A stretch of DNA of 64,000 bases from Halobacteriovorax marinus (GTDB lineage: Bacteria; Bdellovibrionota; Bacteriovoracia; Bacteriovoracales; Bacteriovoracaceae), in assembly GCA_002163155.1 (NCBI GenBank), contig MAAO01000015.1, positions 186,001-250,000 on the forward strand, read 5' to 3'. The notes under the pieces are model-generated. The model saw only the letters and a list, made by a program, of their open reading frames with translations. It ran no database searches and was not told the DNA's origin. Shown one piece after another: positions 1 to 51,030 of this stretch (position 1 is its first letter; every line of letters starts with the position of its first letter). The position numbers were made by a program, and so were the translations under genes.

Positions 1-938
1 GTACAATTGAGGGCACATCCACCAGCAATGATAAGATTCTCAACACCATCAAGAGAGTCCTTGATTTCAGTGACTAATTCTATAAATATCTTTTCAAATA
101 ACTCTTGAACAGAAGCCGCGAGATTTTGAAAATATTCCATTTCACTATCTGCTTCCCAGTCACTCTTACTCTTTCCCGTGTAAGCTCTGGTCCAATCAAG
201 AGAACTCAGCAACTCATCTGTGGAAGAGAAATTAAAACTCTTTCCAAAGGGAGCAAGTCCCATAACTTTTCCAGAGGCACGCTTAGAAGCAAAAATAAAC
301 TCTGCCACCTTTTCATAACAAGTTCCAAGACCTTCGCTGTAGAAGTGTTTTGGAAATTTTGAACTCTGCTTAAACTCTTGCCACTTCTTCCAAACAGGAG
401 TGAGCTTTCCATCCTCTAACAAATAAAGAGAACACTCCTCATGTAATTCACTATGTTCACTTCCAACCAGTGGAAAATCTAAGTGTTCACTTTGAAAATC
501 ACTTCCCTTTGAACCAGCTCCATCAATAATTAAAATAGCGGCCTTCTTAAAGGGTGACATATACTTTGCCACTTGAGCATGACAGTAGTGGTGTGAGAGA
601 AAATCTATATTTTTATTAAACTTCACGGAGAATTTATCTAGCTCTTTCTTAGTGAGATAGTCGTAGAAAGGAATCACCTTATTGAGTTTCTCTTCAAACT
701 CTGAAGGTTTTATCACATCTCTATTTTCACAAATGCGTTGTTCGCGTCCACTTAACTCTTGCTGCAATTTAGACAAAATGAGGTCCGGCCAATTTCCATC
801 AGCTTTCTTGCGGGAGTATCTCTCTAAGAGATAAGTTTTAGGGAATGCACTTATTTCAGGATCAAAGACGCAGACAGATGAGCTAAATAATGTCTTTCCT
901 AGTCCTATGAAAACAGGTGATTTCTTATTCATTTCCAT
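1..938 (-). CDS. Carbamoyltransferase, NodU/CmcH family (partial, C-terminus outside window)
   Basis: The reading frame runs from an ATG to the window edge without a stop (about 312 residues). Recognisable signatures are HHYCHA at residues 116-121 (the metal/active-site histidine motif of the family), IDGAG near 138-142, GKVMGLAPFG further on, and IIAGGCALNC at the edge. These are typical of the TsaD/Kae1-like half of NodU/TobZ-type O-carbamoyltransferases, which transfer a carbamoyl group from carbamoyl phosphate via carbamoyl-AMP to a sugar or secondary metabolite. A second in-frame ATG lies two codons downstream; neither start has a strong ribosome binding site. It follows the sugar-biosynthesis operon on the same strand after a 128-bp gap, so a role in decorating that sugar is plausible but inferred. 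Family call is confident; substrate unknown. Confidence 0.85.
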   Translation of the reverse strand, partial: MEMNKKSPVFIGLGKTLFSSSVCVFDPEISAFPKTYLLERYSRKKADGNWPDLILSKLQQELSGREQRICENRDVIKPSEFEEKLNKVIPFYDYLTKKELDKFSVKFNKNIDFLSHHYCHAQVAKYMSPFKKAAILIIDGAGSKGSDFQSEHLDFPLVGSEHSELHEECSLYLLEDGKLTPVWKKWQEFKQSSKFPKHFYSEGLGTCYEKVAEFIFASKRASGKVMGLAPFGKSFNFSSTDELLSSLDWTRAYTGKSKSDWEADSEMEYFQNLAASVQELFEKIFIELVTEIKDSLDGVENLIIAGGCALNC

Positions 939-1066
939 GACTTATATTATCCACTGATGGGCAGAAAAAGTAAACGAATTGCACCAGTACTAGCTAAGTA
1001 CTAAGAATAGCAGGGCCTAAAGGATTTCTCTAAGTAAGTAGTGCAAATTAAAGGAGGCGAAAAGGC

Positions 1067-2098
1067 CTATTCAAAATATAGAAGCTCAAAATCTCCGCAA
1101 TAACCAGAGCGATCAAAGATATGTTGCCACTCCCTCGGAGAGAAGAATGACTCACAAGTCAGTGCCCAACATTGTAAATTACTGAGTTCTGCTTCATTTC
1201 GGTAAGACTCAGTTGTAATATAGGAATCCTTAGCAACACGACTTATTTCAGAGAGACAGAACTCTAACTCTGGCAGCTCTAAATTGTGAATAGTCATAAG
1301 CGAAATGACCAAATCAAATTCTTTATAAGTGAAATCGAGGGTATTTCGAATGTCATGAATCTTTAGGTCTTTTCTAATTTCTTCTTTAGAATTCTCAATG
1401 GCATATTTAGAAATATCTAAGCCAACGATCTCTATTTCAGGAAGTAGTGAACGGATTTCAAATAGGAGAAAGCCTTTTCCACAACCAAGGTCCAATAATT
1501 TTGATGTATTTGTCAGGTGATAATCATTAATGAGTTTTTCAGCTAAAGACTTCCATCTCCCATCGTACTTGTAACCACCGTAGCCAAATCTTCTGTCCCC
1601 ATCCCAGTAATCTCTTGCGAATAACTTAGAGATTTGCATCTCATGGGCCTTAGCTGGACTCATGCGTTCAAAGTAGTTTCTTGAAGTTGAAGTATGTAAG
1701 CTTTTAAAGTAGGTCTTTTCTCTATTTCTTATATCAATCTTGGTCGCCATGAAGAAATCAAGAAGATCTGTCGTCTCATCTAATGAGTAATTTTCTAAAC
1801 AGAAGTGTAATTTAAGACTCTTTTCTTTTACTACCCTACTCAGTTCTTTAAGAGGTAGTATTTCTCCGCTAATAATATCTACAGAGTAGAATAGAAGATT
1901 GGTGCCATTTTCAACTTCGGACAGAAGAGAGTTTAGTACCTGCCAGCTGCCATCTAGGTTAACTTCTGTATTTCCCAAAGGAAACTCAACCCCTATGCGT
2001 TGACAATAATCTCGAATCACTAGATTCTGCACTTTATGGGGAACAAATGATCCTCTAATTGGTCTAGAAAAGAGGTAACTTGCAAATTTAAAGCTCAT
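1067..2098 (-). CDS. Fusion of a LIC12192-like sporadic-carbohydrate-cluster domain with a SAM-dependent methyltransferase
   Basis: 343 residues. The first ~115 residues (SRPIRGSFVPHKVQNLVIRDYC motif region, then a stretch ending LHFCLEN) resemble the 'sporadic carbohydrate cluster protein, LIC12192 family' as I remember it. From about residue 170 there is a class I methyltransferase, with the SAM-binding loop LDLGCGKG at 202-209 and a further acidic strand (IVGLDIS). I chose the ATG at 2098 rather than an in-frame ATG four codons upstream because GAGG lies six bases before it. It overlaps the end of the oxygenase gene by 11 bp, indicating translational coupling. The likely role is methylating a sugar or a nucleotide-sugar intermediate; the N-terminal domain has no known function. 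The fusion of the two is noteworthy. Confidence 0.75.
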   Translation of the reverse strand: MSFKFASYLFSRPIRGSFVPHKVQNLVIRDYCQRIGVEFPLGNTEVNLDGSWQVLNSLLSEVENGTNLLFYSVDIISGEILPLKELSRVVKEKSLKLHFCLENYSLDETTDLLDFFMATKIDIRNREKTYFKSLHTSTSRNYFERMSPAKAHEMQISKLFARDYWDGDRRFGYGGYKYDGRWKSLAEKLINDYHLTNTSKLLDLGCGKGFLLFEIRSLLPEIEIVGLDISKYAIENSKEEIRKDLKIHDIRNTLDFTYKEFDLVISLMTIHNLELPELEFCLSEISRVAKDSYITTESYRNEAELSNLQCWALTCESFFSPREWQHIFDRSGYCGDFELLYFE

Positions 2099-2813
2099 AA
2101 CTGGCCTCATAATTTAGCGCTAATCTTGTTTGAGTTCCCAATTTATAGGCTTCAAAGTAGCTTAATAATTTCTTATCATGATAAGGACTGAAGTAATTTT
2201 TAAATCTAATATTTAAACTCAGTCTTGTTTCACTATGTTCATTGACCTGATTTCCATGCATCAAAAAGGGAGAGAAGACTAAGGCCTCCCCTACTTTGAG
2301 TTCAATGAACTTCTTCTTTTTTAAATACTTCTTCTCAAGCTCACTTCTTGAAACATTTGCTCTAATATCTTCTTTAATAAGAGCAGAAGTTTCTAGATCA
2401 TAAACAAAGAATGACTTCGTATCATAGACATTAACAAAAGGAATCCATACAACCACTTCATAAGGGGAGTTTCCACAGAGAACGTCTGAATGAAAAGGTA
2501 TGAGAGACTGATCACAACCTGGAATTTGAATATTCACATTAATATTTTTTTGAATAGCAATTTCAGAACCAATCAAAGCATTAAGTTCATCATCAAGAGA
2601 TGAGTAGATGTGATCTTTAACTTCTTTATTTGAAAGGCCACTTATAATTTTAAGTCGCAAATCATTAATCTCAGAGGGTGTAACTAGTTCATGAATATTA
2701 TCAAAGTCTGAAAAACCTAAGATTTTAGACATCTTTAATTTTAAAGAATCAATCTCTTTAAATGAAACTTTAGCAAAACCATTTCTAGTGTAGTGATCAA
2801 TGAAATTATCCAT
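2088..2813 (-). CDS. 2-oxoglutarate/Fe(II)-dependent oxygenase of a carbohydrate cluster (PhyH-like)
   Basis: 241 residues with the facial triad visible: H108-S-D110 (in IPFHSD) and H186 (in FLMHGN), followed by R197 (ETRLSLN), the usual 2-oxoglutarate carboxylate anchor. This is the arrangement of phytanoyl-CoA-dioxygenase-like enzymes. A dedicated subfamily of such oxygenases occurs in the same 'sporadic carbohydrate cluster' as the LIC12192 protein, which fits the neighbours here. It probably hydroxylates or oxidises a sugar intermediate. It overlaps the upstream transketolase gene by 8 bp and the downstream methyltransferase by 11 bp. The substrate cannot be read from the sequence. Confidence 0.8.
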   Translation of the reverse strand: MDNFIDHYTRNGFAKVSFKEIDSLKLKMSKILGFSDFDNIHELVTPSEINDLRLKIISGLSNKEVKDHIYSSLDDELNALIGSEIAIQKNINVNIQIPGCDQSLIPFHSDVLCGNSPYEVVVWIPFVNVYDTKSFFVYDLETSALIKEDIRANVSRSELEKKYLKKKKFIELKVGEALVFSPFLMHGNQVNEHSETRLSLNIRFKNYFSPYHDKKLLSYFEAYKLGTQTRLALNYEASYEL

Positions 2814-3729
2814 CTATTCCCTCTAAGAGTTTCTTAGCTATAACTTCTGGTGTGACTCCGAAGAATTCTAACAACTCCTCTTGCCTTCCATATTCATGAA
2901 CATAATCTGTTCCTAAATGAAAATGTGCAAACTTTACAAAGATCTCTTTTTCAAACAAAGTTTGAGAAACAATTGATCCAAGTCCACCATATTTTAAGTG
3001 TTCTTCAACAACGACAACTTTCTTATGTGACTTTGCATAATGTTCTAGAGACTTATCATCTAAAGGTTTCACGGTAGAGTTATGTAGAACATGTGCCACA
3101 AGACCTTTTTCCGCAAGAATCTTTTGAATATCTAAACAGCGCTGAAGCATTATCCCTGTTGTCACCAGGAGAATATCACCACTCTCACTTTCACCAAAGT
3201 ACTGTGCCTTACCAATTTTAATATTCTTAGTTTTAGTCACAAGTGGATCGCCACCTTTTCCTAAACGAATATAAATAGGACCTTGATGAGTTAAGCTATC
3301 TTGCATGAGTGCTTGCATTTCAAACTCATCAGCGGGGGCGAGAACTGTAATATTTGGAAGACCTTGTAAAATAGCGAAATCATCGAGACAAGTATGAGTA
3401 TAACCTAGCGGTCCATAAACAAGACCACCACCATTTCCATACAGTCTCACATTGAGATTCTCCGCACAGATATCTATCGCCAATTGCTCTAAACTTCTCT
3501 TCACAAGAAATGTCGCAATGGTATTAACATAAACTATGTGACCATCCATCGAAAGTCCTGCGGCCATTCCTAAAACATGGGCCTCACTAATACCTTCCAT
3601 AAAGAATTGTTCTGGTCTTTCAGTTTTTAAATCTTCTAAAACACCTGGTCCTAGATCTGATCCTATAAAGATGACTTGATCATTCTTCTTTGCCATTTCT
3701 GAAATTGTTTTAAGACCCATTTTTCTCAT
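2806..3729 (-). CDS. Transketolase-like enzyme, C-terminal (pyrimidine-binding) subunit
   Basis: 307 residues corresponding to the pyrimidine-binding and C-terminal domains of transketolase/DXS. The catalytic glutamate is in EGISEAHVLGMAAGLS (about residues 46-60), and the C-terminal domain begins with GDILLVTTG. It works as a complex with the adjacent N-terminal subunit, binding thiamine diphosphate at their interface. Split transketolases of this kind are common in secondary-metabolite and surface-sugar clusters, where they move a two-carbon ketol unit. The start overlaps the upstream subunit's stop by 4 bp (ATGA), consistent with equimolar production. A general pentose-phosphate role cannot be excluded, but the context argues for a dedicated pathway enzyme. 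Confidence 0.9.
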   Translation of the reverse strand: MRKMGLKTISEMAKKNDQVIFIGSDLGPGVLEDLKTERPEQFFMEGISEAHVLGMAAGLSMDGHIVYVNTIATFLVKRSLEQLAIDICAENLNVRLYGNGGGLVYGPLGYTHTCLDDFAILQGLPNITVLAPADEFEMQALMQDSLTHQGPIYIRLGKGGDPLVTKTKNIKIGKAQYFGESESGDILLVTTGIMLQRCLDIQKILAEKGLVAHVLHNSTVKPLDDKSLEHYAKSHKKVVVVEEHLKYGGLGSIVSQTLFEKEIFVKFAHFHLGTDYVHEYGRQEELLEFFGVTPEVIAKKLLEGIDG

Positions 3730-4526
3730 TTTAGGCCTCCCAACAATTCATCTATGTCACTTTGATTTAATTTACTCTTATGATGCCAGGCTAAGTTACC
3801 TTCTAGTAGCTTATGACCTTGCCCTTTGATTGTGTGGCAAATAATTGCTGTCGGTTTTCCCTCAGTAGTTTTGAGGTGATCGATTAAGCTATCAGCTTCA
3901 TTAACCATATCAACTTCATGCACAGTAAAACCAAAACTCTTCCACTTATCTCCAAAGGGAGCAAGGGAGCAGACTTCATCAACAGGGCCGTAAGATTGAA
4001 ATTTATTGTGATCGATTAGAACAATGAGATTATCGAGACGATTCTTTGCGGCAGATAGAGCGGCTTCCCAAATTGTTCCTTCATTACATTCACCGTCACC
4101 AAGAACGACAGTGACCATTTTCTTAGATTGATTCTTCTTTAAAGAAAGCGCCATTCCAATTCCAACAGAAAGGCCATGACCAAGAGATCCCGTAGAAACT
4201 TCCACGCCAGGAACTTTTAATCTAGCAGGGTGTCCGCCTAGGATTCCTCCAACTTTACAAAACTTATGATATTCATCTTTTGAGATAAATCCTAAATCAC
4301 TTAGAATGGCATAGAGAGCGAGACAACCATGGCCTTTACTCAAAATTACGCGATCTCTATCTAGAGATGTAAAAGAATCTGGTGTCAGATTAAATTTCTT
4401 ATAATAGAGAGTGACTAAAATCTCAACAAGAGAAAAAGCCGAAGGAAGATGACCTCTGCCACCTTTGATAAATATGTCTAAGATCTCTTTTCGAATATCT
4501 AGGCATTTATTTTGAAAATCTTTCAT
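3726..4526 (-). CDS. Transketolase-like enzyme, N-terminal (thiamine diphosphate-binding) subunit
   Basis: 266 residues matching the PP domain of transketolase: GRGHLPSAFS near the N-terminus, SKGHGCLALYA, GSLGHGLSVGIGMAL, and the ThDP/Mg2+ motif GDGECNEGTIWEA (about residues 142-154) followed by a conserved DHN. Paired with the C-terminal subunit encoded immediately downstream. It overlaps the end of the HAD/kinase fusion gene by 20 bp. Its position between nucleotide-sugar enzymes and an oxygenase suggests ketol transfer onto or from a sugar; supply of erythrose 4-phosphate for the aro genes at the head of the same operon is an alternative. Confidence 0.9.
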   Translation of the reverse strand: MKDFQNKCLDIRKEILDIFIKGGRGHLPSAFSLVEILVTLYYKKFNLTPDSFTSLDRDRVILSKGHGCLALYAILSDLGFISKDEYHKFCKVGGILGGHPARLKVPGVEVSTGSLGHGLSVGIGMALSLKKNQSKKMVTVVLGDGECNEGTIWEAALSAAKNRLDNLIVLIDHNKFQSYGPVDEVCSLAPFGDKWKSFGFTVHEVDMVNEADSLIDHLKTTEGKPTAIICHTIKGQGHKLLEGNLAWHHKSKLNQSDIDELLGGLK

Positions 4527-5934
4527 TGATTAAATCTACTACCGTTTTATTCCAAGACCAATAGTCTAGACCTTGGTCTCTGTTACTTTCCATAATAGTA
4601 ACAAGGCTTTCAGATTTTGTTAAATTTTCAGGATTTTTAGCACAAATCAGCACCCATTCGAGGGCAATTAAGTCGTAGAATTTTACTACCCTATTCCAAA
4701 ATTGCTGATCTTTAATAGAAAGTTCATCAAAGAGGTCAATGAGCATCAAAAACTCTTCTCTTTTCAGAGTATTTCCCAAATGATGAACAGCGTTTAGAAA
4801 AGTTCGTGCAAGATCATCTAAACCAAATGACTCATAGTCGAATATGAGAAGCTCATTCCCTATTCTTCCGAAGTTATGCTTAAAGAAATCAGGTAAACAG
4901 AGGCTTCGTGGTATAGATTTCTTATTAATCGAAGTTTTCACTTTGATTTGGTCGAAAATATTTCTGACTCTCTCATGAAGTGAAGTACTCACAATCCCTT
5001 GCAACTCTATTAGCCGTCCCTCAATATTTGCGAAATAGCTCATTTCATTTGAAATTCCGTGAGTGGCCATGAATCCAATATCCCGACGACGTTCTTGTAG
5101 CTTTTGAAAAAAACTTAGATATTCATCACAAAACCATTGATCAATGTGGCCAATTTTTTCAAATTCAATAAATTCTTCCACAAGCATGTGATCACTTTGA
5201 AAAACCACGTTGGCATAATTTCTAATATCAAGAGAAAGAGATACCCTTTCTCTAAGAGATCGCTGCTTATTTATAAAAGTCTTAAAGAAGTACCTTTGAT
5301 CTTGGTTTTCTAAAATATATGAACTCTTTCCAAGGCCAGTCATAGATGTTGGAAAGAAATTAAACTTCTTAAAGAAGTTAAAGAGATCGAAGATCATCTC
5401 CCATGAACCTAGGGCAAAGTGGTCTTTTGAATAGTGAGCAAAGAGAATCTTAAAATTTATAGTTTTACTCTCTGCTAAGATTTCTTCAAGGTCATCGATG
5501 ACTACATCAAATTTACCGCGATTAAGATAATCACATTTATCACTGAAGCTATCAAAGAATTGAATAGAGTCTTCAGAGAGACCAATTTGTTTAATTTTCT
5601 TAAGGGCACTCTCTCTCAAGTTAAAACGCCCACAAAGACTCTTTTTAGACTTATGGCTAATGATTTCCACTTCAAAGCCCTGAGACTTGAAGTAGTTAAA
5701 GACTTTTAAAAAATCTCCTTCCTCTCCAGACTCTAGGATCAATTCACCGTAACAACGTCCTTGAACTTCAATCCATTTTTTAGGCCACTCGTATTCATTG
5801 GAGTTTTTAAGAAATATTTTAATTTCATTTTTAGAAAGGGATTTATCGATAGTTACATTTTCGAGGAGGCAAGCTTTATGAAAAAGCTCACTATAATCAA
5901 CAATGGTATTGTCAAAATCAATGGCAATTTTCAT
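4507..5934 (-). CDS. Two-domain protein: HAD-type phosphatase fused to an aminoglycoside-phosphotransferase-like kinase
   Basis: 475 residues. Residues 1-180 carry HAD motifs: motif I DFDNT with D6 and D8, a motif II serine in EIISHKS, and motif IV VVIDDLEE. From about residue 195 a kinase-like fold follows: GLGKSSYIL glycine-loop region, RYFFKTF with the likely ATP lysine, and a catalytic segment LPDFFKHNF then FDYESFG. Compared with the APH/choline-kinase consensus HGDxxxxN...D, the aspartate and asparagine are kept but the histidine-glycine pair is replaced by Leu-Pro. A phosphatase and a sugar kinase on one chain may swap the phosphate position of a sugar before nucleotidyl transfer. It overlaps both neighbours (17 and 20 bp). 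The precise reaction is unknown. Confidence 0.75.
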   Translation of the reverse strand: MKIAIDFDNTIVDYSELFHKACLLENVTIDKSLSKNEIKIFLKNSNEYEWPKKWIEVQGRCYGELILESGEEGDFLKVFNYFKSQGFEVEIISHKSKKSLCGRFNLRESALKKIKQIGLSEDSIQFFDSFSDKCDYLNRGKFDVVIDDLEEILAESKTINFKILFAHYSKDHFALGSWEMIFDLFNFFKKFNFFPTSMTGLGKSSYILENQDQRYFFKTFINKQRSLRERVSLSLDIRNYANVVFQSDHMLVEEFIEFEKIGHIDQWFCDEYLSFFQKLQERRRDIGFMATHGISNEMSYFANIEGRLIELQGIVSTSLHERVRNIFDQIKVKTSINKKSIPRSLCLPDFFKHNFGRIGNELLIFDYESFGLDDLARTFLNAVHHLGNTLKREEFLMLIDLFDELSIKDQQFWNRVVKFYDLIALEWVLICAKNPENLTKSESLVTIMESNRDQGLDYWSWNKTVVDLINERFSK

Positions 5935-6919
5935 CTATTTCTTTTTCACTTAGGTATTTAACATTGAAGTACTTATCGTCTTCAAATGAGTTGGGAATAA
6001 CTCCCTCTTTAAATTTTAAAATAAGATCAGCTACAGCTTCACGAATACTCTTCTTGGCCACAAATCCCAACTTCTCTTCAATTCTCTTTGAAGAGATATG
6101 ATAAGAGCGGATATCATCAGAGTGTTCCACAATAACTTTTTCTACATCAGCTTCTGTAGCTATCATATTAGCAAGTTCCAATACGGTATGGTTTTCTCCA
6201 CCCACATTGAAAACTTCTCCAGAAATTTTTCTAGTATCAACTTCTAACAATGAGAGATAACATCTCACCATATCATCAATATGAATATTTGGTCTCTTTT
6301 GGCTTCCACCAAAGACCTTAACAAGATCCTTATTCACTGCGAAGTTAGTCAGTATATTTACGACAACATCGAGTCTTAACCTTTCAGAATATCCACATAC
6401 TGTGGCAGGTCTAACTGCAACGGTAGTAAATTCTTCACTATTATATCTCATTAGAATCTCTTCACAGAGCGCCTTATATTTTGAGTAATCCGTTAAAGGA
6501 TCTAATGCTAGATCTTCAGTCACATGACTTTCTTCTTTAACACCGTAGACGCTGGAAGATGAAGCATAGATAAAACGACTAACGCCGCTCTTTTTGGCAA
6601 TTTTCACTATATCTTCGAAACAATCATAATTAATAGATTTAGAAAGTTTTGGATTTAAATCATAGGAAGGATCATTTGAGATACAGGCCAAGTGAATAAA
6701 ATCAGTACAGCCTAGTGTGGCTTTTTGAAGTTTATCAAGATCTCTAATATCTTCTTTATAACAAGTCACACGATCAGACATGGCATCAAAAACATCAGTA
6801 CCAATAAACCAAAACAGATCAAAGACGACGACGCTATAACCTTCGCTGTAGAGTTTTTTTACAAGCTCTACACCCACATAACCTGCGCCACCGGTGACGA
6901 GAACTTTTCTATTCTTCAC
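5918..6919 (-). CDS. NAD-dependent epimerase/dehydratase (extended SDR)
   Basis: 333 residues. The Rossmann motif GGAGYVG lies at residues 10-16, followed by an acidic strand end (VVFDLF), the active-site serine region YASSSSVYG and the YxxxK motif (YSKYK, about residue 147). Enzymes of this family act on nucleotide sugars: 4-epimerases, 4,6-dehydratases or 4-reductases. The YDLNPKLS segment differs from canonical GalE. It is one of two adjacent SDR genes in the coupled operon, overlapping the previous one by 11 bp. It probably supplies a keto- or epimerised sugar to the downstream transketolase and oxygenase. Confidence 0.85.
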   Translation of the reverse strand: MKNRKVLVTGGAGYVGVELVKKLYSEGYSVVVFDLFWFIGTDVFDAMSDRVTCYKEDIRDLDKLQKATLGCTDFIHLACISNDPSYDLNPKLSKSINYDCFEDIVKIAKKSGVSRFIYASSSSVYGVKEESHVTEDLALDPLTDYSKYKALCEEILMRYNSEEFTTVAVRPATVCGYSERLRLDVVVNILTNFAVNKDLVKVFGGSQKRPNIHIDDMVRCYLSLLEVDTRKISGEVFNVGGENHTVLELANMIATEADVEKVIVEHSDDIRSYHISSKRIEEKLGFVAKKSIREAVADLILKFKEGVIPNSFEDDKYFNVKYLSEKEIDENCH

Positions 6920-7910
6920 AATCTGTTCCTAGAAATTTAAACCACGACTTAGTCTCATCTACAATTTCAGAAGTGGACCAAACCTTAGCTTTCTTCCAAT
7001 AATCAATATTCTTTAAAATTTCTGCAACTCCATCAGCAAAGGACACTTCAGCGTGCCAATTGAGTTTATTTGCAATTTTGGAACTATCTCCGTGAGTACG
7101 ATCAGGTTCACCTGGTCTCTTGGGAATAAACTCTACTCCATGTCCATCTAAGAGAGAAATTAATGTATTTACGCTCTGAGGTTTCCCCGTGGCCACATTA
7201 AATATCTCTTGAAAGCACTTAGAAGTTGCAGCACTGAGAAAGGCCTTCGCTACATCAGTAACAAAGACAAAATCTCTAACTTGCTCTCCGTCACCCACTA
7301 CAGTAAAAGGTTTATTGGCCAATTTCTGTGCTAAGAAAACACCAAAAACCGCACCATAAGTTCCGTTTGTTCTAGATCTTGGACCATAGACATTAAAGAG
7401 TCTTAAAGAATTTACTTCAATATTATATATTTTTCCCCAGTGAAGAAGCGCCTCTTCACCCATTAGCTTGGTTTGCGCGTAGGGATATTCTGGCGAAAGA
7501 GCATCAGTTTCACTCGTTGGAAAATTTGTAGCTATTCCATAACAGCTTGAAGACGCCGCATAGACAACTCTCTTAATAGAATTAAATCTTGCCGCTTCGA
7601 GAACATTCACTGTTCCAGTAACATTCACATCAAAATATTTTTTTGGATTTTCCACAGAAGGAACAATATCTGCTTTTCCTGCCAAATGAAAAATCACATC
7701 ACAACCAACAGAGGCCTCAGACAAGCGATCAAAGTTTAAAATATCATCTTCAATAAAAGTAAAAGAGTTACTCTTTAAGGCATGAGATAGATTTTCAAGA
7801 TTCCCGTCGTCTAAGTTATCAAAGCAAATCACTTCAAACTTTTCTTCTAAGAGAAGATCAATAAGATGACTTCCGATAAATCCGGCACCACCAGTAACGA
7901 GTGCTTTCAT
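6909..7910 (-). CDS. NAD-dependent nucleotide-sugar epimerase/dehydratase (GalE/WbpP-like SDR)
   Basis: 333 residues starting MKALVTGGAGFIGSH, with a GKADIVPSVENP segment, AASSSCYG, YAQTK (catalytic Tyr/Lys, about residue 147), RLFNVYGPR and RDFVFVTDV. All are standard for UDP-hexose 4-epimerase-like SDRs. Start and stop overlap neighbours (1 bp upstream, 11 bp downstream). The combination with a dedicated nucleotidyltransferase gene just upstream implies that the sugar is activated first and then modified by the two SDRs. Confidence 0.88.
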   Translation of the reverse strand: MKALVTGGAGFIGSHLIDLLLEEKFEVICFDNLDDGNLENLSHALKSNSFTFIEDDILNFDRLSEASVGCDVIFHLAGKADIVPSVENPKKYFDVNVTGTVNVLEAARFNSIKRVVYAASSSCYGIATNFPTSETDALSPEYPYAQTKLMGEEALLHWGKIYNIEVNSLRLFNVYGPRSRTNGTYGAVFGVFLAQKLANKPFTVVGDGEQVRDFVFVTDVAKAFLSAATSKCFQEIFNVATGKPQSVNTLISLLDGHGVEFIPKRPGEPDRTHGDSSKIANKLNWHAEVSFADGVAEILKNIDYWKKAKVWSTSEIVDETKSWFKFLGTDCEE

Positions 7911-8413
7911 TATTTATCCTTTAAGTAATTATTTATAATATCTGTTGAACTGAGTTGGATATCATTGGTGTAGTGAATAATACCACCTGATGATTCCACT
8001 GACTCTACTTCTGCACCTATATTTCCCGTAGGATCCTTAGCGTGTTCAATATAGTCATTACCCTTAAAGTAGATATCAGGTTGAAACTTCTTTAACATTG
8101 CAATAGCGTGGGGAGAATTATTGATAAAACAATAATCGATATACAATAGAGATGCTAAGTATTCAATTCTCTCAATTTGTTTATAAAAAGGTCTTCCATC
8201 ACCTTTAATGACAAATTCATCAGGAGTGATGGAACAAAAGAGAATATCAACATTACTCTTGGCCTCTTGAAAATGTCTCAGGTGACCTAAGTGAATAAAA
8301 TCAAAAGTACCGTGGCATAATCCAACAGTTATCGATTTTTCTTTAAAAGACTTTCTCTTATAGATGGCATCATCTAAAGATAGATGCTTATTTTTTAGTT
8401 CACTAAGAATCAC
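7910..8413 (-). CDS. Cytidylyltransferase-like sugar-phosphate nucleotidyltransferase (RfaE domain II type)
   Basis: 167 residues with the HxGH signature in GTFDFIHLGHLRHF, and a later ISSTD segment (SSTDII) that serves nucleotide binding in this fold. The family joins CMP/ADP to a sugar or alditol phosphate (RfaE/HldE C-terminal domain, TagD). I chose the GTG at 8413 because GAGG lies nine bases upstream and the protein then begins MILSELKNK, as usual for RfaE-type domains; an ATG 17 codons upstream lies inside aroA and is less likely. It overlaps the aroA stop by 11 bp. There is no fused kinase domain; the downstream HAD/kinase fusion may play that part. Confidence 0.82.
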   Translation of the reverse strand: MILSELKNKHLSLDDAIYKRKSFKEKSITVGLCHGTFDFIHLGHLRHFQEAKSNVDILFCSITPDEFVIKGDGRPFYKQIERIEYLASLLYIDYCFINNSPHAIAMLKKFQPDIYFKGNDYIEHAKDPTGNIGAEVESVESSGGIIHYTNDIQLSSTDIINNYLKDK

Positions 8414-9641
8414 AATCAATAACCTCAAAGAAATTGCCAAAGGATTTAGAAACACAGTGGCCATTAGTTAGACTTCCCCCACCATTAGCTCTTAAGAAGA
8501 GATAAGAAATCATAACAATTCTATGATCGATGGGAGGAGTAAGTTCAAAGCTCTCTAATTGTGCAGCTCTCTGACCAGTAATTGTTAGAACATCAGCACT
8601 TTCATCATAAGAGTTTTTGATTTTATATAAATCAAGAAGGTGAATAATTTCTTTTAACCTATCACTCTCTTTATATTTCAATACATCAATATTTTTTAAT
8701 TTTGAGTCTCCCTCTATTTTTGAACAAAGGAAGGCAAGAGTCGGAACAAGGTCGGGACAATTTGCGCAATCAAAATCAATGGTCTCTGGAGATTCAGTTC
8801 TTTTAACTCGCAGTCCATCGCTAGCAAGCGACACCTGATGGTTCATTTGTTTTAGCACTTCAATTAAAATTGCATCAGCTTGAAAGTTGTCCACTTCTAA
8901 GCAATTTTTAACATGCACGCTTCCAAGTACAGCACCAAGTGCTAGAGGATATGACATGGAGCTAAAATCCACCGGCACAACAAACTCGCGCTGACCTCCG
9001 TTGAACTTATTAATCAAGTCCTTAGTCATTTCCCAGTAGCTAGTAGAGTACTTCATATTTTCAGGTTCAATATCACTCTTTCTAAGAGCGAGACTTAAGG
9101 CCGTTATATGCTGAGTAGTTTTCTCAGCATTTACTACAAGACTCTTTGGAATTTCACCAAAGGGCCCTTGAATACTCATCCAACCTTTCTCACCCAATGA
9201 AACAGCAACACCTAAATTCTTAAGAGTAACAGCAAGATCTTCGATGGGTCTCTCTTTCATTCGACCTTCGGGCTCAACAATATAGGTCTCTTGACCAAGC
9301 GCTAGAAAAGGAATGAGAAAACGAGTTGTTGTACCACCATCTCCTGTTTCTAATACAAGAGGAGAGCTGAGCTTTCTTTCACACTTTGGAAATGAGTTAG
9401 TCACAGTAAGACTATTCCCTTCTCGCTCTATATTGAGTCCTACTTTTCTTAAACAATTTATGAGATTTTCCACATCATGTGACAGAGGAATATTTGAGAC
9501 AACTACGGGTTCGTCTACCGTACAGGCCAAGATAAGAATTCTATTTGCTGCGGACTTAGAAGAGGGAACATCTAGAGTTCCATTATAGTCACGAGGCTTA
9601 ACTATCAATTGAGATTGTTTTAAGTTCATCAGCTGCCGCAT
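8403..9641 (-). CDS. aroA: 3-phosphoshikimate 1-carboxyvinyltransferase (EPSP synthase)
   Basis: About 412 residues. Diagnostic segments are VPSSKSAANRILILA near the N-terminus, GDGGTTTRFLIPFLAL, ESDRLKEI and DHRIVMIS near the C-terminus. It transfers enolpyruvate from PEP to shikimate 3-phosphate in the cytoplasm. An alternative ATG lies four codons inside (MNLKQSQ); neither has a clear ribosome binding site because the start lies inside the aroB 3' end, so coupled translation is likely. The canonical motifs appear intact, so a normal shikimate role is the simplest reading despite the unusual operon. Confidence 0.95.
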   Translation of the reverse strand: MRQLMNLKQSQLIVKPRDYNGTLDVPSSKSAANRILILACTVDEPVVVSNIPLSHDVENLINCLRKVGLNIEREGNSLTVTNSFPKCERKLSSPLVLETGDGGTTTRFLIPFLALGQETYIVEPEGRMKERPIEDLAVTLKNLGVAVSLGEKGWMSIQGPFGEIPKSLVVNAEKTTQHITALSLALRKSDIEPENMKYSTSYWEMTKDLINKFNGGQREFVVPVDFSSMSYPLALGAVLGSVHVKNCLEVDNFQADAILIEVLKQMNHQVSLASDGLRVKRTESPETIDFDCANCPDLVPTLAFLCSKIEGDSKLKNIDVLKYKESDRLKEIIHLLDLYKIKNSYDESADVLTITGQRAAQLESFELTPPIDHRIVMISYLFLRANGGGSLTNGHCVSKSFGNFFEVIDCDS

Positions 9642-10629
9642 TTAGTTTTGTATTAAGTTCATCAAATTTAAATTTCTTAACAATTGGTTTTCCAATTTCT
9701 TCTACTAAAACGAGATCTATATCTTCAAAAGAAGAAACTTTCTTATCCTTTTTTATATAGATCATCACATCTTCAAGAAGAAATGATTTATTCAACCACG
9801 GAGAATTACCCACAGTTATTTCAAGAGCAGATGAAAGAGCTCTTAAATGATCTTGCATTTTATTTTTTTGAAAGACTTTAGTTACAAGTAGTATTCCCCA
9901 AATAACAGAGACACCATGGCTAAGTCCATAGATCTTCTCAATGGCGTGTCCAATAGTATGACCAAAATTTAAAACTTTTCTCAATCCCTGTTCTTTAAAA
10001 TCACTTGAAACTATTTCTTTCTTATATTCTACGCAATCTTTAATAATTTCATTTAAAGGTTTCTTAGCGAGAATTTTATCGCTAATTACTTTAGACAAGA
10101 AACCGTATTTAATCATCTCGCCCATACCACTGAGATATTCATGAGCTGGAAGTGTTTCTAAGAATTCAGGGCAGATCCAGATATTACTTGGATGATGAAA
10201 AGCTCCAATTAAATTCTTTCCATGGGCAGAATTAATAGCAACTTTACCACCAACACCAGCATCAACCATTGAAAGTAATGTGGTAGGAATGACCGACCAT
10301 TCAATTCCTCTAAGAAGCATTGAGGCCACAAGACCAGCGAAATCACTAGTCGCCCCTCCTCCAATAGAAATCAAATGAGCATTCCTATGGATTCCTTTTG
10401 AAATAAAGAACTCTAAGGCAGAAGCAAGGTTAGTAAAATCTTTAACCTTCTCACCGTCGGGAGCTTTCCAAAAAAGAACCTTCTTACCTTCTATATTCAA
10501 TAAAGGCAGAGCTCGAGAGTACTCACTCCAAACATTTAAATCTGCCACAATGAGAATTAGCTCTGAGTCTATAGACTTTATCTTTTTAACGATGTCACTG
10601 ATTTCACAGTATTCAATATTACTATTCAT
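9598..10629 (-). CDS. aroB: 3-dehydroquinate synthase
   Basis: 343 residues. The NAD-binding loop reads GGGATSDFAG, followed by PTTLLSMVDAGVGGKVAINS, and zinc-site segments GEMIKYGFL and LNFGHTIGHAIE. These match true dehydroquinate synthases; the related deoxy-scyllo-inosose synthases share the fold, but nothing here points to them and aroA/aroC flank the gene. It converts DAHP to 3-dehydroquinate. I chose the ATG at 10629 (GGAG six bases upstream) over a GTG five codons earlier. It overlaps the end of aroC by 8 bp. Confidence 0.93.
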   Translation of the reverse strand: MNSNIEYCEISDIVKKIKSIDSELILIVADLNVWSEYSRALPLLNIEGKKVLFWKAPDGEKVKDFTNLASALEFFISKGIHRNAHLISIGGGATSDFAGLVASMLLRGIEWSVIPTTLLSMVDAGVGGKVAINSAHGKNLIGAFHHPSNIWICPEFLETLPAHEYLSGMGEMIKYGFLSKVISDKILAKKPLNEIIKDCVEYKKEIVSSDFKEQGLRKVLNFGHTIGHAIEKIYGLSHGVSVIWGILLVTKVFQKNKMQDHLRALSSALEITVGNSPWLNKSFLLEDVMIYIKKDKKVSSFEDIDLVLVEEIGKPIVKKFKFDELNTKLNAAADELKTISIDS

Positions 10630-11629
10630 TAAGAGCTCCGTCACCGTATGCTCTTTGACGAAGCAAGTGATCTGCGATTACACATTTAATCATCGCTTCA
10701 ACTACAGGAACCGCCCTTGGTAAGATACAAGGATCATGTCTTCCCGCTGTGGCCTTTTCTCCAATTGTTGAAGTTGGCTTAAAAGTTGTTGTCATGAAGA
10801 TATCATCTCCATTAGATATTCCACCTTCAATTCCACCAAAGTTTCCTCTGTTGCTTGAAACTTCACTTCCTTTTAAATTGGCCATCTCTTCACCTAGTCC
10901 AAAAGAAAATGAAACACAGGCTCCAATAGAAAGTAAGGACTTAGCAAAATCAGCTTTTAATTTATCAAAAGCCGGCTCACCTAACCCTGTGGGACAACCT
11001 TCTACTAAAATAGAAATTCTTCCGCCCACTGATTCTCCACTAGCTTTTAACTGCAAGAGATACTTCTTTATTTCAGTATTTTTTTCAGTTAGAGGAAAAT
11101 TATAGGGAGCTAAGTCATTTGAGTTTTTCAAATCATCTACACTTGATTCAAATGGACCCATCTTAGCAATATAGGCCGTAACTTTAATCTTAGGGATTAA
11201 CAGACCAGCAAAGTATCCAGCGATTACTCTTGCCAGAGTTTCTCTTCCACTTGAACGACCACCACCTCGGTGATCACGAAAACCATACTTATTCATAGTC
11301 GTCTCATCTGCATGACCAGGACGATATTCAGTTTTTAATTTATTGTAATCTTCACTTCTTTGATTTGTATTTTTAACAATGATGGCAATGGGTGTTCCAA
11401 GAGTTTTACCTTCAAAAACTCCAGATAAAACCTCAGCTTGATCACCCTCTTTTCGATTTGTTGTACCGGCCACTCTTCCAGGTGCTCTTCGGTCTAGTTG
11501 CCTTTGTAGTTCTTCAAGATCAACTTCTAGACCTGCGGGCACACCATCTAAAACAGTTCCTAGTGCATTTCCGTGGGACTCCCCAAATGATACAAATGAA
11601 AATAGCTTACCGAATTTATTGCCACGCAT
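10622..11629 (-). CDS. aroC: Chorismate synthase
   Basis: 335 residues beginning MRGNKFGKLFSFVSFGESHG, with the family signatures GESHG, RRAPGR, EYRPGHADETT, RDHRGGGRSSGRETLARV and, near the C-terminus, GRHDPCILPRAVPVVEAM. It catalyses the FMN-dependent conversion of EPSP to chorismate. It is the first gene of the long coupled operon; an AGAGAG sequence precedes the ATG. The promoter should lie in the ~137 bp shared with the divergent PilZ gene, but I cannot assign boxes confidently. Confidence 0.96.
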   Translation of the reverse strand: MRGNKFGKLFSFVSFGESHGNALGTVLDGVPAGLEVDLEELQRQLDRRAPGRVAGTTNRKEGDQAEVLSGVFEGKTLGTPIAIIVKNTNQRSEDYNKLKTEYRPGHADETTMNKYGFRDHRGGGRSSGRETLARVIAGYFAGLLIPKIKVTAYIAKMGPFESSVDDLKNSNDLAPYNFPLTEKNTEIKKYLLQLKASGESVGGRISILVEGCPTGLGEPAFDKLKADFAKSLLSIGACVSFSFGLGEEMANLKGSEVSSNRGNFGGIEGGISNGDDIFMTTTFKPTSTIGEKATAGRHDPCILPRAVPVVEAMIKCVIADHLLRQRAYGDGALNE

Positions 11630-47396: not shown

Positions 47397-47430
47397 GGCC
47401 TCTCTACTTTGAGGGGCTATTCTGTTTTTT
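47397..47430 (+). terminator. Terminator of the secreted-protein gene
   Basis: Stem GGCCTCTC/GAGGGGCT (two G-T pairs) with a TACTTT loop, followed by ATTCTGTTTTTT. It overlaps the stop codon of the convergent radical-SAM fusion gene. Confidence 0.65.
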
Positions 47431-49360
47431 CACAAAGAAGAGCAACACTTCTGGCCATAGATCTCACTTCATCAATATCCTTAGTCACGTCTATATCAAT
47501 TTTTAAAGTACTCATTAATATATCAAGGGAATCTAAGAAGAAGGCCTTACTATAGGAATATTTCTTGTCCGTATTTAAAAAAGGATTGAGGCGATCATCA
47601 CTACTAGCACCAGCACCTAACATGTCTTTCCACTTCCAAACACAATGAGCATTTCTAAGCGTGACAGGAATTGAATAGATTTGATGTTGCAATAATTTCT
47701 TGCTTAAAATCATCGCGCGGTCTGGAGCCTTACAATTTATATGAATTGAGGTACAACAGTCCCCGGCGCTATCCCTGGCGGCAATGATTTCAAAGTTATC
47801 ACCAATCTGACTTAACTCTTTTAGAAAGATCTCTTTTCTTTCACGGTAAGCCTCTTGAATTTTTGAAAGCTTTTCTAATTGCACTCTCATGATTGCCCCT
47901 GAAATATCAGACACTCGCATCGAGAGTCCAAGAAAGGGTTTTATCGTTGAGAATTCATCCTTATGTAGAGGATTAAAAGAATAACCGTGATCAGTAATGC
48001 ACAGAAGTTTTTCTCTTAGATCTGCTCTAGTCGTTGCTACTATTCCACCCTCACCACAAGAGAGAATTTTATCTCTATTTAATGAGAAACACCCTATGTC
48101 ACCAAAGGTTCCGAGATACTTACCATTGAATTTTCCACCCATCGCCTGAGCGACATCTTCGATTACGGAGAGATTATTTTTTGCTGCAAGTTCTACGATG
48201 GCTTCAATATCACATTGCACTCCATCCATATGAACAGGAATGATTGCCTTAGTTCTATCCGTGATGGCATTACTTATTTCCTCTAGTGAAATAGTCATAT
48301 CACTTTTAATATTTACAACCACAGGGATTGCTCCAACAGTTAAGACTGCCGCCGCTGTTGCAATATATGTATATGAGGGGATAATGACTTCATCTTTTGG
48401 ACCCACTCCAACGGCAAGTAACCCGGCAACTAGAGCATTGGTTCCACTTGTGATAATTATTGATTTTTCAAAACCAAGTTTTTCGCTAAACTCTCTTTCG
48501 AAAGCTGCACATTCACTTTCTTCCATTTGATAGCGATAGGTATTTCCTTTTTCAAAAACTCGCTTGATAGCTGCAAGCTCCTCATCACCTAAGAAGTGTT
48601 TATTGTTGGTTTTAATTTCTTTTTTCATATTCTTATCTATCCTGTCGCAATCTTTACAATTCTCGTAGAGATGTCGTTTTCCGTCTTTTAAATCTTTTCT
48701 AAATTCTTTGTATTCTAACGAATTCCAAATATCAATGACGTGAGTTTCGTTAACATTTCCAAGAACAAAGTTTTGCTCATAATCTTCAAAACAAGAAACG
48801 ACATTTCCCTTTAGAGTAATAGTTAAATTATTTGTTGGTATTGAACAAGGAAGATTAGAAGTATCTTCTTTAGAAGTTATAACTTCTAATAAACCTCCCC
48901 TATTATAGAGATCTATTTCATCAAAGTTTCTATACTCTATAAATGATGAGTCATCTCGACTTAGAGTTTTATAAACCTCATCAAATTTGTAATCCTCTTC
49001 ATTTTCATGTTTTGTTATATAGAAGTAATCAATTCCAGCATCCTGAATTTCTTTGAATTTTTCTTTAGACGTAATCTTTGTTCCGTTTGAATAGAGAACA
49101 AGTATTGCGTTAGGCAGCTTCTTTCTCGCAATTTTTGTGTAGTTTAAAAAGTTCCGACTTAGTAGAGGTTCGTTATAAAATTCAAAAGATATTTTACCGC
49201 TGTAATTATACTCTCCCAACTGATCCATAATACGGATAAAAGTCTTCTCTTCCATATCTCCTGTTTCAACTCTTTTAGAGATAGAGTTTGGACAATAGGA
49301 ACACTTCCTATTGCAGGCACTATTTATTTCAATTTCCACTAAATTGGGAAGACTCTTCAT
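47417..49360 (-). CDS. Fusion: radical SAM (SPASM/twitch, BtrN-like cysteine spacing) and DegT/DnrJ/EryC1 aminotransferase
   Basis: 647 residues. Residues 1-245 are a radical SAM domain with CxxxCxxC at C16, C20, C23 and an auxiliary cluster set C172, C190, C235, C238 (typical GNV...IW...R segment between). From memory, BtrN, the radical SAM dehydrogenase of 2-deoxystreptamine synthesis, uses C16/C20/C23 and C169/C187/C232/C235: the same spacings 18, 45 and 3. Residues about 255-640 are a sugar/cyclitol aminotransferase: GTNALVAGLLA, PSYTYIATA, EDVAQAMGG, and K431 in the SLNRDKILSCGEGG segment as the likely PLP lysine. A single chain could oxidise an alcohol and transaminate the ketone. No pathway genes are adjacent. 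Single gene. Confidence 0.85.
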   Translation of the reverse strand: MKSLPNLVEIEINSACNRKCSYCPNSISKRVETGDMEEKTFIRIMDQLGEYNYSGKISFEFYNEPLLSRNFLNYTKIARKKLPNAILVLYSNGTKITSKEKFKEIQDAGIDYFYITKHENEEDYKFDEVYKTLSRDDSSFIEYRNFDEIDLYNRGGLLEVITSKEDTSNLPCSIPTNNLTITLKGNVVSCFEDYEQNFVLGNVNETHVIDIWNSLEYKEFRKDLKDGKRHLYENCKDCDRIDKNMKKEIKTNNKHFLGDEELAAIKRVFEKGNTYRYQMEESECAAFEREFSEKLGFEKSIIITSGTNALVAGLLAVGVGPKDEVIIPSYTYIATAAAVLTVGAIPVVVNIKSDMTISLEEISNAITDRTKAIIPVHMDGVQCDIEAIVELAAKNNLSVIEDVAQAMGGKFNGKYLGTFGDIGCFSLNRDKILSCGEGGIVATTRADLREKLLCITDHGYSFNPLHKDEFSTIKPFLGLSMRVSDISGAIMRVQLEKLSKIQEAYRERKEIFLKELSQIGDNFEIIAARDSAGDCCTSIHINCKAPDRAMILSKKLLQHQIYSIPVTLRNAHCVWKWKDMLGAGASSDDRLNPFLNTDKKYSYSKAFFLDSLDILMSTLKIDIDVTKDIDEVRSMARSVALLCEKTE

Positions 49361-49406: not shown

Positions 49407-49436
49407 TAAAAAAAAGGCCCCAAATTAATTGGGGCC
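49407..49436 (-). terminator. Terminator of rny
   Basis: Stem GGCCCCAA/TTGGGGCC at 49416-49436 with an A/T loop and, on the minus strand, at least eight T residues following. Located between rny and the radical-SAM fusion gene. Confidence 0.9.
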
Positions 49437-49470
49437 TCTTAAACTATGATAATTTGGTAACTTAATTAGA

Positions 49471-51030
49471 TTACTTAGCTACACCAATAGCTTTTGTCTC
49501 TCTAACAACCGTAATTTTGATTGTTCCAGGATAAGACATTTCTTCTTCAATTTTCTTGGCGATATCTCTTGAGAGCAGAATTGTTTGCTCATCACTCACA
49601 GAATTATTCTCAACGATAACTCTAACTTCACGACCACCAGAGATGGCGTAAGACTTAGAAACACCTTCGAAAGTATTTACGATATCTTCAATGTCAGTAA
49701 GACGTGAAACATATGATTCCATCATGGCTTTTCTTGCACCTGGACGGGCACCTGAAAGTGCATCTCCAGCAGCAACAATGTGAGCCAGAACAGATTCTGG
49801 TTTTTCATCATCGTGGTGAGCTCTAATGGCATGAACGATATCTGGGGCCTCTCCGTACTTCTTAGCAAAGTCAGCACCAGTTACAGCGTGAGAACCTTCA
49901 GCCGAAGCATCAAGAACTTTACCGATGTCATGTAATAAACCAGCACGTCTTGCTTGTTTAACATTCATACCCATTTCAGCGGCCATAGCTCCACAAATAA
50001 ATGCGGCCTCAATAGCATGTTGGTATTGGTTTTGAGTATATGAAGTTCTCCAGTTTAGAGCACCAATCAATTTTAAAATCTCTGGGTGAATACCGTGAAC
50101 ACCGATTTCCATTTGAGCTTTTTCACCAAGAGAAAGAAGTTGTTTTTCCATCTCTGATTTAGACTTGTCATGAAATTCTTCAATTTTTGCTGGATGAATT
50201 CTTCCATCAGCAATAAGTTTTAAAATTGTCTGTCTCGCAATTTCTCTTCTCACAACGTTGAAAGATGAAATCACAACAACTTCTGGAGTATCATCAATAA
50301 TTAAATCAACACCACAGATTTGTTCGAAGGCACGAATGTTACGTCCTTCTCTACCAATTAAACGACCTTTAACATCATCAGAAGGAAGCTCAACTGTTGA
50401 GATTGTTTTTTCAGCAACATGCTCACCGGCAAATCTTTGAATCGCAATTCCTACAATCTTCTTAGCAGTTTCTTCTGCTGTTTCTCTTGCTTCTTCTTCT
50501 AAACGAACAAGTCTCTTAGAAAAATCTACTTTCGCATCTTCTTCCATTAAACCAATTAGCTCTTCTTTGGCCTGATCTTCAGTAAGTCTACTTACTTCAG
50601 TTAGCTTAACAACAATCTCTTCTTGTTTAGCTTTGAATCTGCCACGTTCTTCATCAGCAGCACGTTTAGATTTTTCAAGATCAGCTTCTTTATCGGCCAT
50701 TCTTGCTTTTTCTTTGCTAGCTTCTTCAATCTTTGTTTCAAGCTTTGCTTCTTTTTGAGAAACTACTTTTTCTTGATCTTTAATTTCTTTTTGTCTTTGA
50801 GAAATTTCTTTATCAAGAGTCTGCTTTTCTTCTCTAGCAATTTCTTTAGCTTCTTTTCTAGCTTTGTAAGCTATATCTTTGGCCTTTTCTTTTGCGTCGT
50901 CGATGATTACATCACCTTTTGCTTTTCTTTCATTCACTTCTTTCGTCGCTTGAGAATTTCTTACGAAAAACCCTACACCTGCGCCTACGATAAGAAATAG
51001 AACGGATGCAAGAATTACTTCCATACTCAT
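49471..51030 (-). CDS. rny: Ribonuclease Y
   Basis: 519 residues, the usual length. An N-terminal membrane anchor (VILASVLFLIVGAGVGFF), a long charged coiled coil to about residue 190, a KH domain (GRLIGREGRNIRAFEQICGVDLIIDDTPE) and an HD domain (HAIEAAFICGAMA then LLHDIGK and RAHHDD). It is the membrane-bound endoribonuclease initiating mRNA decay. First-position ATG with a second in-frame ATG two codons on. Probably last gene of an operon with fau and zapA. Confidence 0.97.
   Translation of the reverse strand: MSMEVILASVLFLIVGAGVGFFVRNSQATKEVNERKAKGDVIIDDAKEKAKDIAYKARKEAKEIAREEKQTLDKEISQRQKEIKDQEKVVSQKEAKLETKIEEASKEKARMADKEADLEKSKRAADEERGRFKAKQEEIVVKLTEVSRLTEDQAKEELIGLMEEDAKVDFSKRLVRLEEEARETAEETAKKIVGIAIQRFAGEHVAEKTISTVELPSDDVKGRLIGREGRNIRAFEQICGVDLIIDDTPEVVVISSFNVVRREIARQTILKLIADGRIHPAKIEEFHDKSKSEMEKQLLSLGEKAQMEIGVHGIHPEILKLIGALNWRTSYTQNQYQHAIEAAFICGAMAAEMGMNVKQARRAGLLHDIGKVLDASAEGSHAVTGADFAKKYGEAPDIVHAIRAHHDDEKPESVLAHIVAAGDALSGARPGARKAMMESYVSRLTDIEDIVNTFEGVSKSYAISGGREVRVIVENNSVSDEQTILLSRDIAKKIEEEMSYPGTIKITVVRETKAIGVAK

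Follow-up and report, generated by a model that had tools for sequence, protein, structure and literature searches.

A BtrN-type radical SAM domain joined to a KdnA-related aminotransferase in Halobacteriovorax marinus and its predicted role in amino sugar synthesis

A single gene in the window (the whole 64,000-nucleotide stretch of Halobacteriovorax marinus DNA analysed here) encodes a BtrN-type radical SAM (rSAM) domain and a KdnA-related aminotransferase (AT) of the DegT family in one chain. We read the protein as a bifunctional alcohol-to-amine converter for a (di)amino sugar of a surface glycan, with a probability of about two in three; its most likely role is to decorate a surface glycan of the cell itself, and not to take part in antibiotic synthesis. 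BtrN is the model twitch dehydrogenase and is tied to butirosin. Its close sister group proves to be a family of the Bdellovibrionota, which is paired almost always with a different aminotransferase and is fused to it in nine genomes. The enzyme families themselves are known, and the novelty lies in the architecture and the pathway setting; a literature search found no paper describing an rSAM-DegT fusion.

Gene, domain layout and transcription unit

The fusion gene (47417..49360, minus strand, as for all features below) is an uninterrupted open reading frame of 647 amino acids plus stop, with an ATG start and zero internal stops, and has full-length orthologues 42–52% identical in other genomes. 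Three Pfam domains are found in the protein: Radical_SAM (residues 11–123), SPASM/twitch (172–239) and DegT_DnrJ_EryC1 (260–550; PF01041, 239 bits against a cut-off of 19.8). The BtrN-type half comprises residues 1–241 (48638..49360) and the aminotransferase half residues 254–647 (47420..48601). The linker between them (residues 242–253, 48602..48637) overlaps the stretch of lowest confidence in the structural model and falls where the AT gene begins in relatives that encode it separately. The two domains in one chain, as originally proposed, are thus confirmed by the reading frame, the Pfam domains and sequence matches (given below for each half) that are not due to chance.

The AF2 model of the fusion, built from 76 input sequences, has a mean pLDDT of 94 and a pTM of 0.86 (with just four congener fusions as the input the pLDDT is 51.5). 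The matches listed in the whole-model comparisons with the PDB (Foldseek, VIA-align) cover the AT half only, so the fold assignment of the rSAM half rests on sequence.

In the window, the gene is flanked by rny (49471–51030) on one side and by a small putative secreted-protein gene on the other. A terminator-like stem-loop (49412..49440), detected by consensus scan only, lies between rny and the fusion gene, which would therefore form its own transcription unit. In this sense the gene does stand alone, as the original prediction had it; the second part of that statement, that it is far from sugar genes, holds for this genome only. Here a large polysaccharide operon lies 36–47 kb away (window 1–11629, continuing upstream; L042), and some of the relatives' fusions are found inside such loci.

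The radical SAM half and its kinship with BtrN

In a search of all PDB sequences, the rSAM half matches BtrN (2-deoxy-scyllo-inosamine dehydrogenase of butirosin synthesis, PDB 4m7s/4m7t) with an E value of 3.6e-59 over residues 3–241 of the fusion (4m7s), and the next match is at 0.16. By pairwise mapping to 4m7s, 90 of 240 residues are identical (37.5%). Residues 1–283 contain exactly seven cysteines, at positions 16, 20, 23, 172, 190, 235 and 238, just where they had been placed originally. The first three carry the same numbers in BtrN, while C172, C190, C235 and C238 correspond to C169, C187, C232 and C235, so that the BtrN numbering given originally and its shift of three residues were both right. 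All seven cluster cysteines are invariant in a 14-sequence alignment that includes BtrN, and so is R154 (48899..48901) of the N-R motif. This residue is equivalent to BtrN R152, which we take to contact the substrate hydroxyl, and is a putative substrate contact here.

BtrN is a twitch enzyme with the SAM cluster at C16/C20/C23 (PMC9012708), and its auxiliary cluster is ligated fully by four cysteines and is a likely electron acceptor (PMC9012708; also PMC6231123). In the fusion, the CX3CX2C motif (49292..49315) offers the predicted ligands of the SAM-binding [4Fe-4S] cluster, and the four auxiliary-cluster cysteines sit at the BtrN positions in the twitch domain (residues 172–239, 48644..48847; SPASM E 4.7e-16). 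NeoN (neomycin) and HygY (hygromycin B) are also twitch rSAM enzymes and, as predicted for the fusion, have an aminoglycoside-type rSAM chemistry at hydroxyl-bearing or adjacent carbons, but they are epimerases, cited in PMC10991966 as dependent on an additional cysteine (the hydrogen donor). Among all cysteines of the window's rSAM half none is additional to the cluster ligands, and in the other fusions no extra cysteine of the H-donor type is conserved, some of them carrying extra, non-conserved ones. We infer dehydrogenase chemistry for the rSAM half, that is, a two-electron alcohol oxidation with two predicted [4Fe-4S] clusters; this reading is well supported by the BtrN homology and by the lack of a conserved extra cysteine as in epimerases of the NeoN/HygY type.

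The phylogeny places the rSAM half next to BtrN, as anticipated. In the rSAM tree (a quick tree, with rows collected by similarity to the family itself) clades of 48 and 46 rows (support 97 and 98, respectively) contain BtrN and the fusions. Besides BtrN and its relatives from Paenibacillus and the Clostridia, the 46-row clade holds a Bdellovibrionota group in which the fusions nest; the group with the fusion is sister to the BtrN/DOI-synthase clade. At four loci on the BtrN side (L086, L091, L093, L094) a DHQS-like synthase is accompanied by an aminotransferase of the BtrS clade, and these loci are, as read from these genes, butirosin-type clusters. BtrN and the fusion share the CX3CX2C motif, the four auxiliary cysteines and the invariant N-R motif, and occupy neighbouring clades. 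BtrN, however, stands alone beside BtrS and DOI synthase (L091, L094), whereas the fusion is joined to a different DegT type, occurs in another phylum and comes without a DOI-synthase candidate.

As a separate observation, position 191 (P0001 numbering), which directly follows the second auxiliary ligand, is aromatic in BtrN and the fusions but a cysteine in six outgroup rSAM proteins (L041, L101, L105, L115, L118 and L147). This cysteine may mark an epimerase type.

The aminotransferase half

The best solved sequence for the AT half is KdnA (8-amino-3,8-dideoxy-Kdo transaminase, PDB 5k8b), matched at full length with a phmmer E value of 1.5e-51; in the case of a split relative the values are 1.8e-62 for KdnA and 8e-44 for the next match. 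KdnA also ranks first for the fold of the AF2 model, both by Foldseek and by VIA-align (Z 48.9, rmsd 2.4, 385 residues, over 254–645; next Z 44.6). As the identity is only 28–29%, the match indicates kinship and does not prove the same substrate. In the AT tree, the fusion and split aminotransferases form their own 19-row clade (support 100) with KdnA as the nearest reference, and BtrS is in a separate 8-row clade (support 99). K431 (48068..48070), the predicted PLP Schiff-base lysine, aligns with the lysine motif of BtrS and KdnA (DKILSCGEGG / GKVLTAGEGG / VKTITCGEGG) and is invariant in the fusions, in agreement with the original assignment, and the PLP partner aspartate D402 is present and conserved.

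BtrS/BtrR (glutamine:2-deoxy-scyllo-inosose aminotransferase, PDB 2c7t) has the DegT fold and the same PLP motif and is the pathway partner of BtrN and a dual-function precedent; it differs from the AT half by its clade and by lower sequence and structure scores, as a relative scoring below KdnA together with a scyllo-inositol transaminase. The parallel with BtrS drawn at the outset was therefore not borne out. KdnA is a single-domain protein that works with the group III alcohol dehydrogenase (ADH) KdnB, in contrast to the fusion, in which a radical SAM enzyme serves as the in-chain oxidant.

In Clostridiaceae bacterium M8S5 (CP118523; L093:10001–15872) a BtrN homologue likewise has a DegT fusion as its neighbour. 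This fusion differs in having a BtrS-type aminotransferase joined to a PIG-L deacetylase, next to a DHQS-like synthase. The locus is possibly an undescribed 2-deoxystreptamine-type cluster in an anaerobe.

Distribution and origin of the fusion

Copies in relatives were found by an alignment-based scan of genome contigs. Full-length fusions are present in three of the four congeners (42–44% identity), in Halobacteriovorax bin.43 (L071), in two other Bacteriovoracaceae/Halobacteriovoraceae bins (L072, L073) and in G107, and in Bacteriovorax sp. DB6_IX (L106) the fusion is cut by the contig end. Altogether nine genomes of six genera, within one family, carry it, and its intact occurrence in independent genomes rules out an artefact or misassembly. 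In the rSAM tree the eight complete fusions group together in a single clade (support 96), as do all nine in the AT tree (support 92), with an internal order closely matching that of the rSAM tree, so a single origin suffices. Elsewhere in the phylum the rSAM and AT are separate genes. The conserved AT start lies 3 bases past the rSAM gene end in L088 and overlaps it by one base in L095; loss of a stop between such abutting genes would explain the fusion. The GC content of the two halves differs (31 vs 39%), but a recent join was rejected as the explanation, since the remaining fusions tend towards a difference in the same direction and the whole set falls into a single clade.

Co-occurrence with a zinc-dependent alcohol dehydrogenase

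Across the phylum (369 genomes) the rSAM, the KdnA-related AT clade and a Zn-dependent ADH co-occur almost perfectly. The rSAM is found in 30 genomes (counting matches of ~1e-85 or better and two that are cut short at contig ends), the AT clade in 34 and both in 29, where 2.8 are expected by chance; the ADH is found in 25, all of them with the AT (2.3 expected). For these counts the E cut-offs were chosen to separate the clades, and the p-values ignore relatedness. All three genes are present in 22 genomes, rSAM and AT only in seven, AT and ADH only in three, and AT only in two. The one rSAM genome lacking the AT is 56% complete. At the genus level 18 of 19 genera agree with the co-occurrence, and within genera the presence is patchy, the congener G004 having none of the three.

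The ADH is of the polyol dehydrogenase type (the best PDB match is a ketose reductase) and its Zn ligands are invariant. It adjoins the fusion in L029, L071, L072, L073 and L106, and in L033 it forms part of an overlapping operon rSAM-ADH-AT. In several genomes of the genus g58 the AT and ADH are adjacent, with the rSAM elsewhere, and the window's genome has two ADH orthologues elsewhere (C9:249527 and C6:161370).

Neighbourhoods and the likely destination of the product

In L031, L032, L123, L095 and L088 the genes abut or lie near two GT4-type transferases and a carbamoyltransferase, the nearest solved structures of the latter being 7xb6, followed by the novobiocin enzyme, GdmN and TobZ. An ABC ATPase and an ABC-2 permease are recurrent neighbours in relatives, in which the product probably becomes part of an O-carbamoylated surface glycan exported by an ABC transporter. 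This evidence comes mostly from split rSAM/AT versions; among the fusion loci only L031 and L032, from two genomes of this genus, are in a GT/carbamoyltransferase locus. The absence of adjacent partner genes at the window's fusion gene is a counterpoint to the proposed function.

The operon kdsB-like/pyrG/kdsA/HAD phosphatase/gpsA of L071 closes with the fusion and the ADH, and the start of the fusion gene overlaps the stop of gpsA. The kds operon is kept in other genomes, far from and without the fusion.

Nearly every carrier genome checked has one DHQS-family gene (the distant G201 has two), and none was found in G093 (78% complete) or G342. The single copy in the window's genome lies in the window beside AroA (EPSP synthase) and AroC (chorismate synthase), and for this reason it is taken to be AroB, not a DOI synthase. 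No DOI-synthase candidate and no inositol-phosphate synthase occur in any fusion genome (the latter is present only in the distant G341 and G342). A butirosin-like cluster is thereby rejected for the fusion genomes, and a substrate of the butirosin type, implied by the original prediction, becomes unlikely.

The polysaccharide/shikimate operon is an operon-like run (1067..11629) that continues upstream of the window and that, by its gene content, is related though distant. It unites the genome's only DHQ, EPSP and chorismate synthases with two NAD-dependent epimerases, a cytidylyltransferase, a methyltransferase and a transketolase split into N and C subunits. It also encodes a carbamoyltransferase, a glycosyltransferase of 934 aa and an unfused BtrN paralogue (window and L042); the upstream part holds the paralogue, a glycosyltransferase and the carbamoyltransferase. 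The paralogue, which has no AT, is at C6:181685–182410, 3.6 kb upstream of the window.

Proposed mechanism and alternative explanations

In the proposed mechanism, the first cluster would cleave SAM, and the 5'-deoxyadenosyl radical would abstract a hydrogen atom from the alcohol carbon of a sugar-like substrate. The four-cysteine auxiliary cluster would accept the second electron to give a ketone (or aldehyde), and the PLP-dependent half would exchange the carbonyl for an amine, with glutamate or glutamine as the donor. The separate Zn-dependent ADH, usually present and often adjacent, would carry out a second (or an alternative) NAD-linked oxidation; given this second oxidation the product may be a diamino sugar. 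By Rosetta-stone reasoning both halves would act on one molecule, presumably with direct hand-over of the carbonyl between them, and the product would be destined for a surface glycan. The sequences themselves show the homology and the catalytic residues, that the fusion is real and arose once, and also the co-occurrence and the neighbourhoods that support this mechanism. The bifunctional alcohol-to-amine converter remains the best reading, with a sugar as the candidate substrate and Kdo as one explicit candidate.

In a rival scheme based on Kdo as the substrate, the fusion, either alone or together with the Zn-ADH, would replace KdnB/KdnA and produce 8-amino-Kdo (Kdo8N) or another amino-Kdo for lipopolysaccharide. 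The closeness of the AT half to KdnA in all three comparisons, the kdsA-containing operon of L071 and the lack of a KdnB-type Fe-ADH in G000, G001, G003, G017 and G030 (with no PF00465 match in the fusion's own genome) speak for this route. However, KdnA is a distant relative, kdsA is equally present in G004, which has no fusion, and one would hardly expect Kdo to be partnered with GT4-type transferases and a carbamoyltransferase. We keep the route as a rather unlikely rival and do not adopt it, because just one of the fusion loci belongs to a kds operon. An aminocyclitol route as in butirosin, from 2-deoxy-scyllo-inosamine or an inositol-derived cyclitol to a diaminocyclitol, would fit the strong BtrN homology with its invariant N-R motif and other invariant positions, as well as the BtrS and scyllo-inositol transaminase among the lower-scoring AT relatives. 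It is nevertheless very unlikely, as the synthases are missing (the fusion genomes have a single DHQS-family gene each, except G093, where none was found, and the window's is AroB by linkage), unless the cyclitol is taken up, and the AT half falls outside the BtrS clade.

The two halves might also act on different molecules or at separate steps of a shared pathway, with co-expression as the reason for the fusion. Alternatively, the reaction of the rSAM half might be redox-neutral, for instance an epimerisation. Fusion alone is no proof of consecutive steps, and the g58 genomes with the rSAM apart from the adjacent AT and ADH suggest that the AT may primarily serve the ADH; the extra cysteines of some fusions would suit an epimerase. 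Against separate steps, the rSAM is nearly always accompanied by this AT clade (in 29 of 30 genomes), and against epimerisation, the extra cysteines are not conserved. We consider these possibilities, taken together, improbable, and prefer the alcohol-to-amine converter.

A more far-reaching version of the latter may be put forward tentatively, as possible rather than probable. A one-chain rSAM dehydrogenase and transaminase, with the Zn-ADH, would pass a reactive carbonyl from the Fe-S site to the PLP site and in this way make a (di)amino sugar that is as yet undescribed and might be an amino-Kdo. This sugar would characterise the surface glycan of predators of the Halobacteriovorax type, and the BtrN family would serve surface glycans outside antibiotic clusters in the Bdellovibrionota. 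If the proposed function is correct, the fusion offers a natural single-chain alcohol-to-amine route on a sugar, with no NAD at the oxidation step, and would be a useful biocatalyst. The identity of the amino sugar coating such bacteria would also become testable, and may matter for prey recognition or self-protection.

Other observations

In ~13 loci the BtrN-like genes have a further radical SAM protein beside them, whose twitch domain is N-terminal (L042:8566–9681, L030:6409–7557, L087:10719–11834 and others). One of the two Zn-ADH orthologues lies in the region L043:3247–13352 (G000:C6, ~153–163 kb), clustered with several radical SAM proteins, a GDSL-type protein and two DegT-like proteins. 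In L089 and L090 (Acetivibrio) and in L124 (Clostridia), with no DHQS-like gene in the fetched flanks, a BtrN-clade rSAM is located near aminotransferases.
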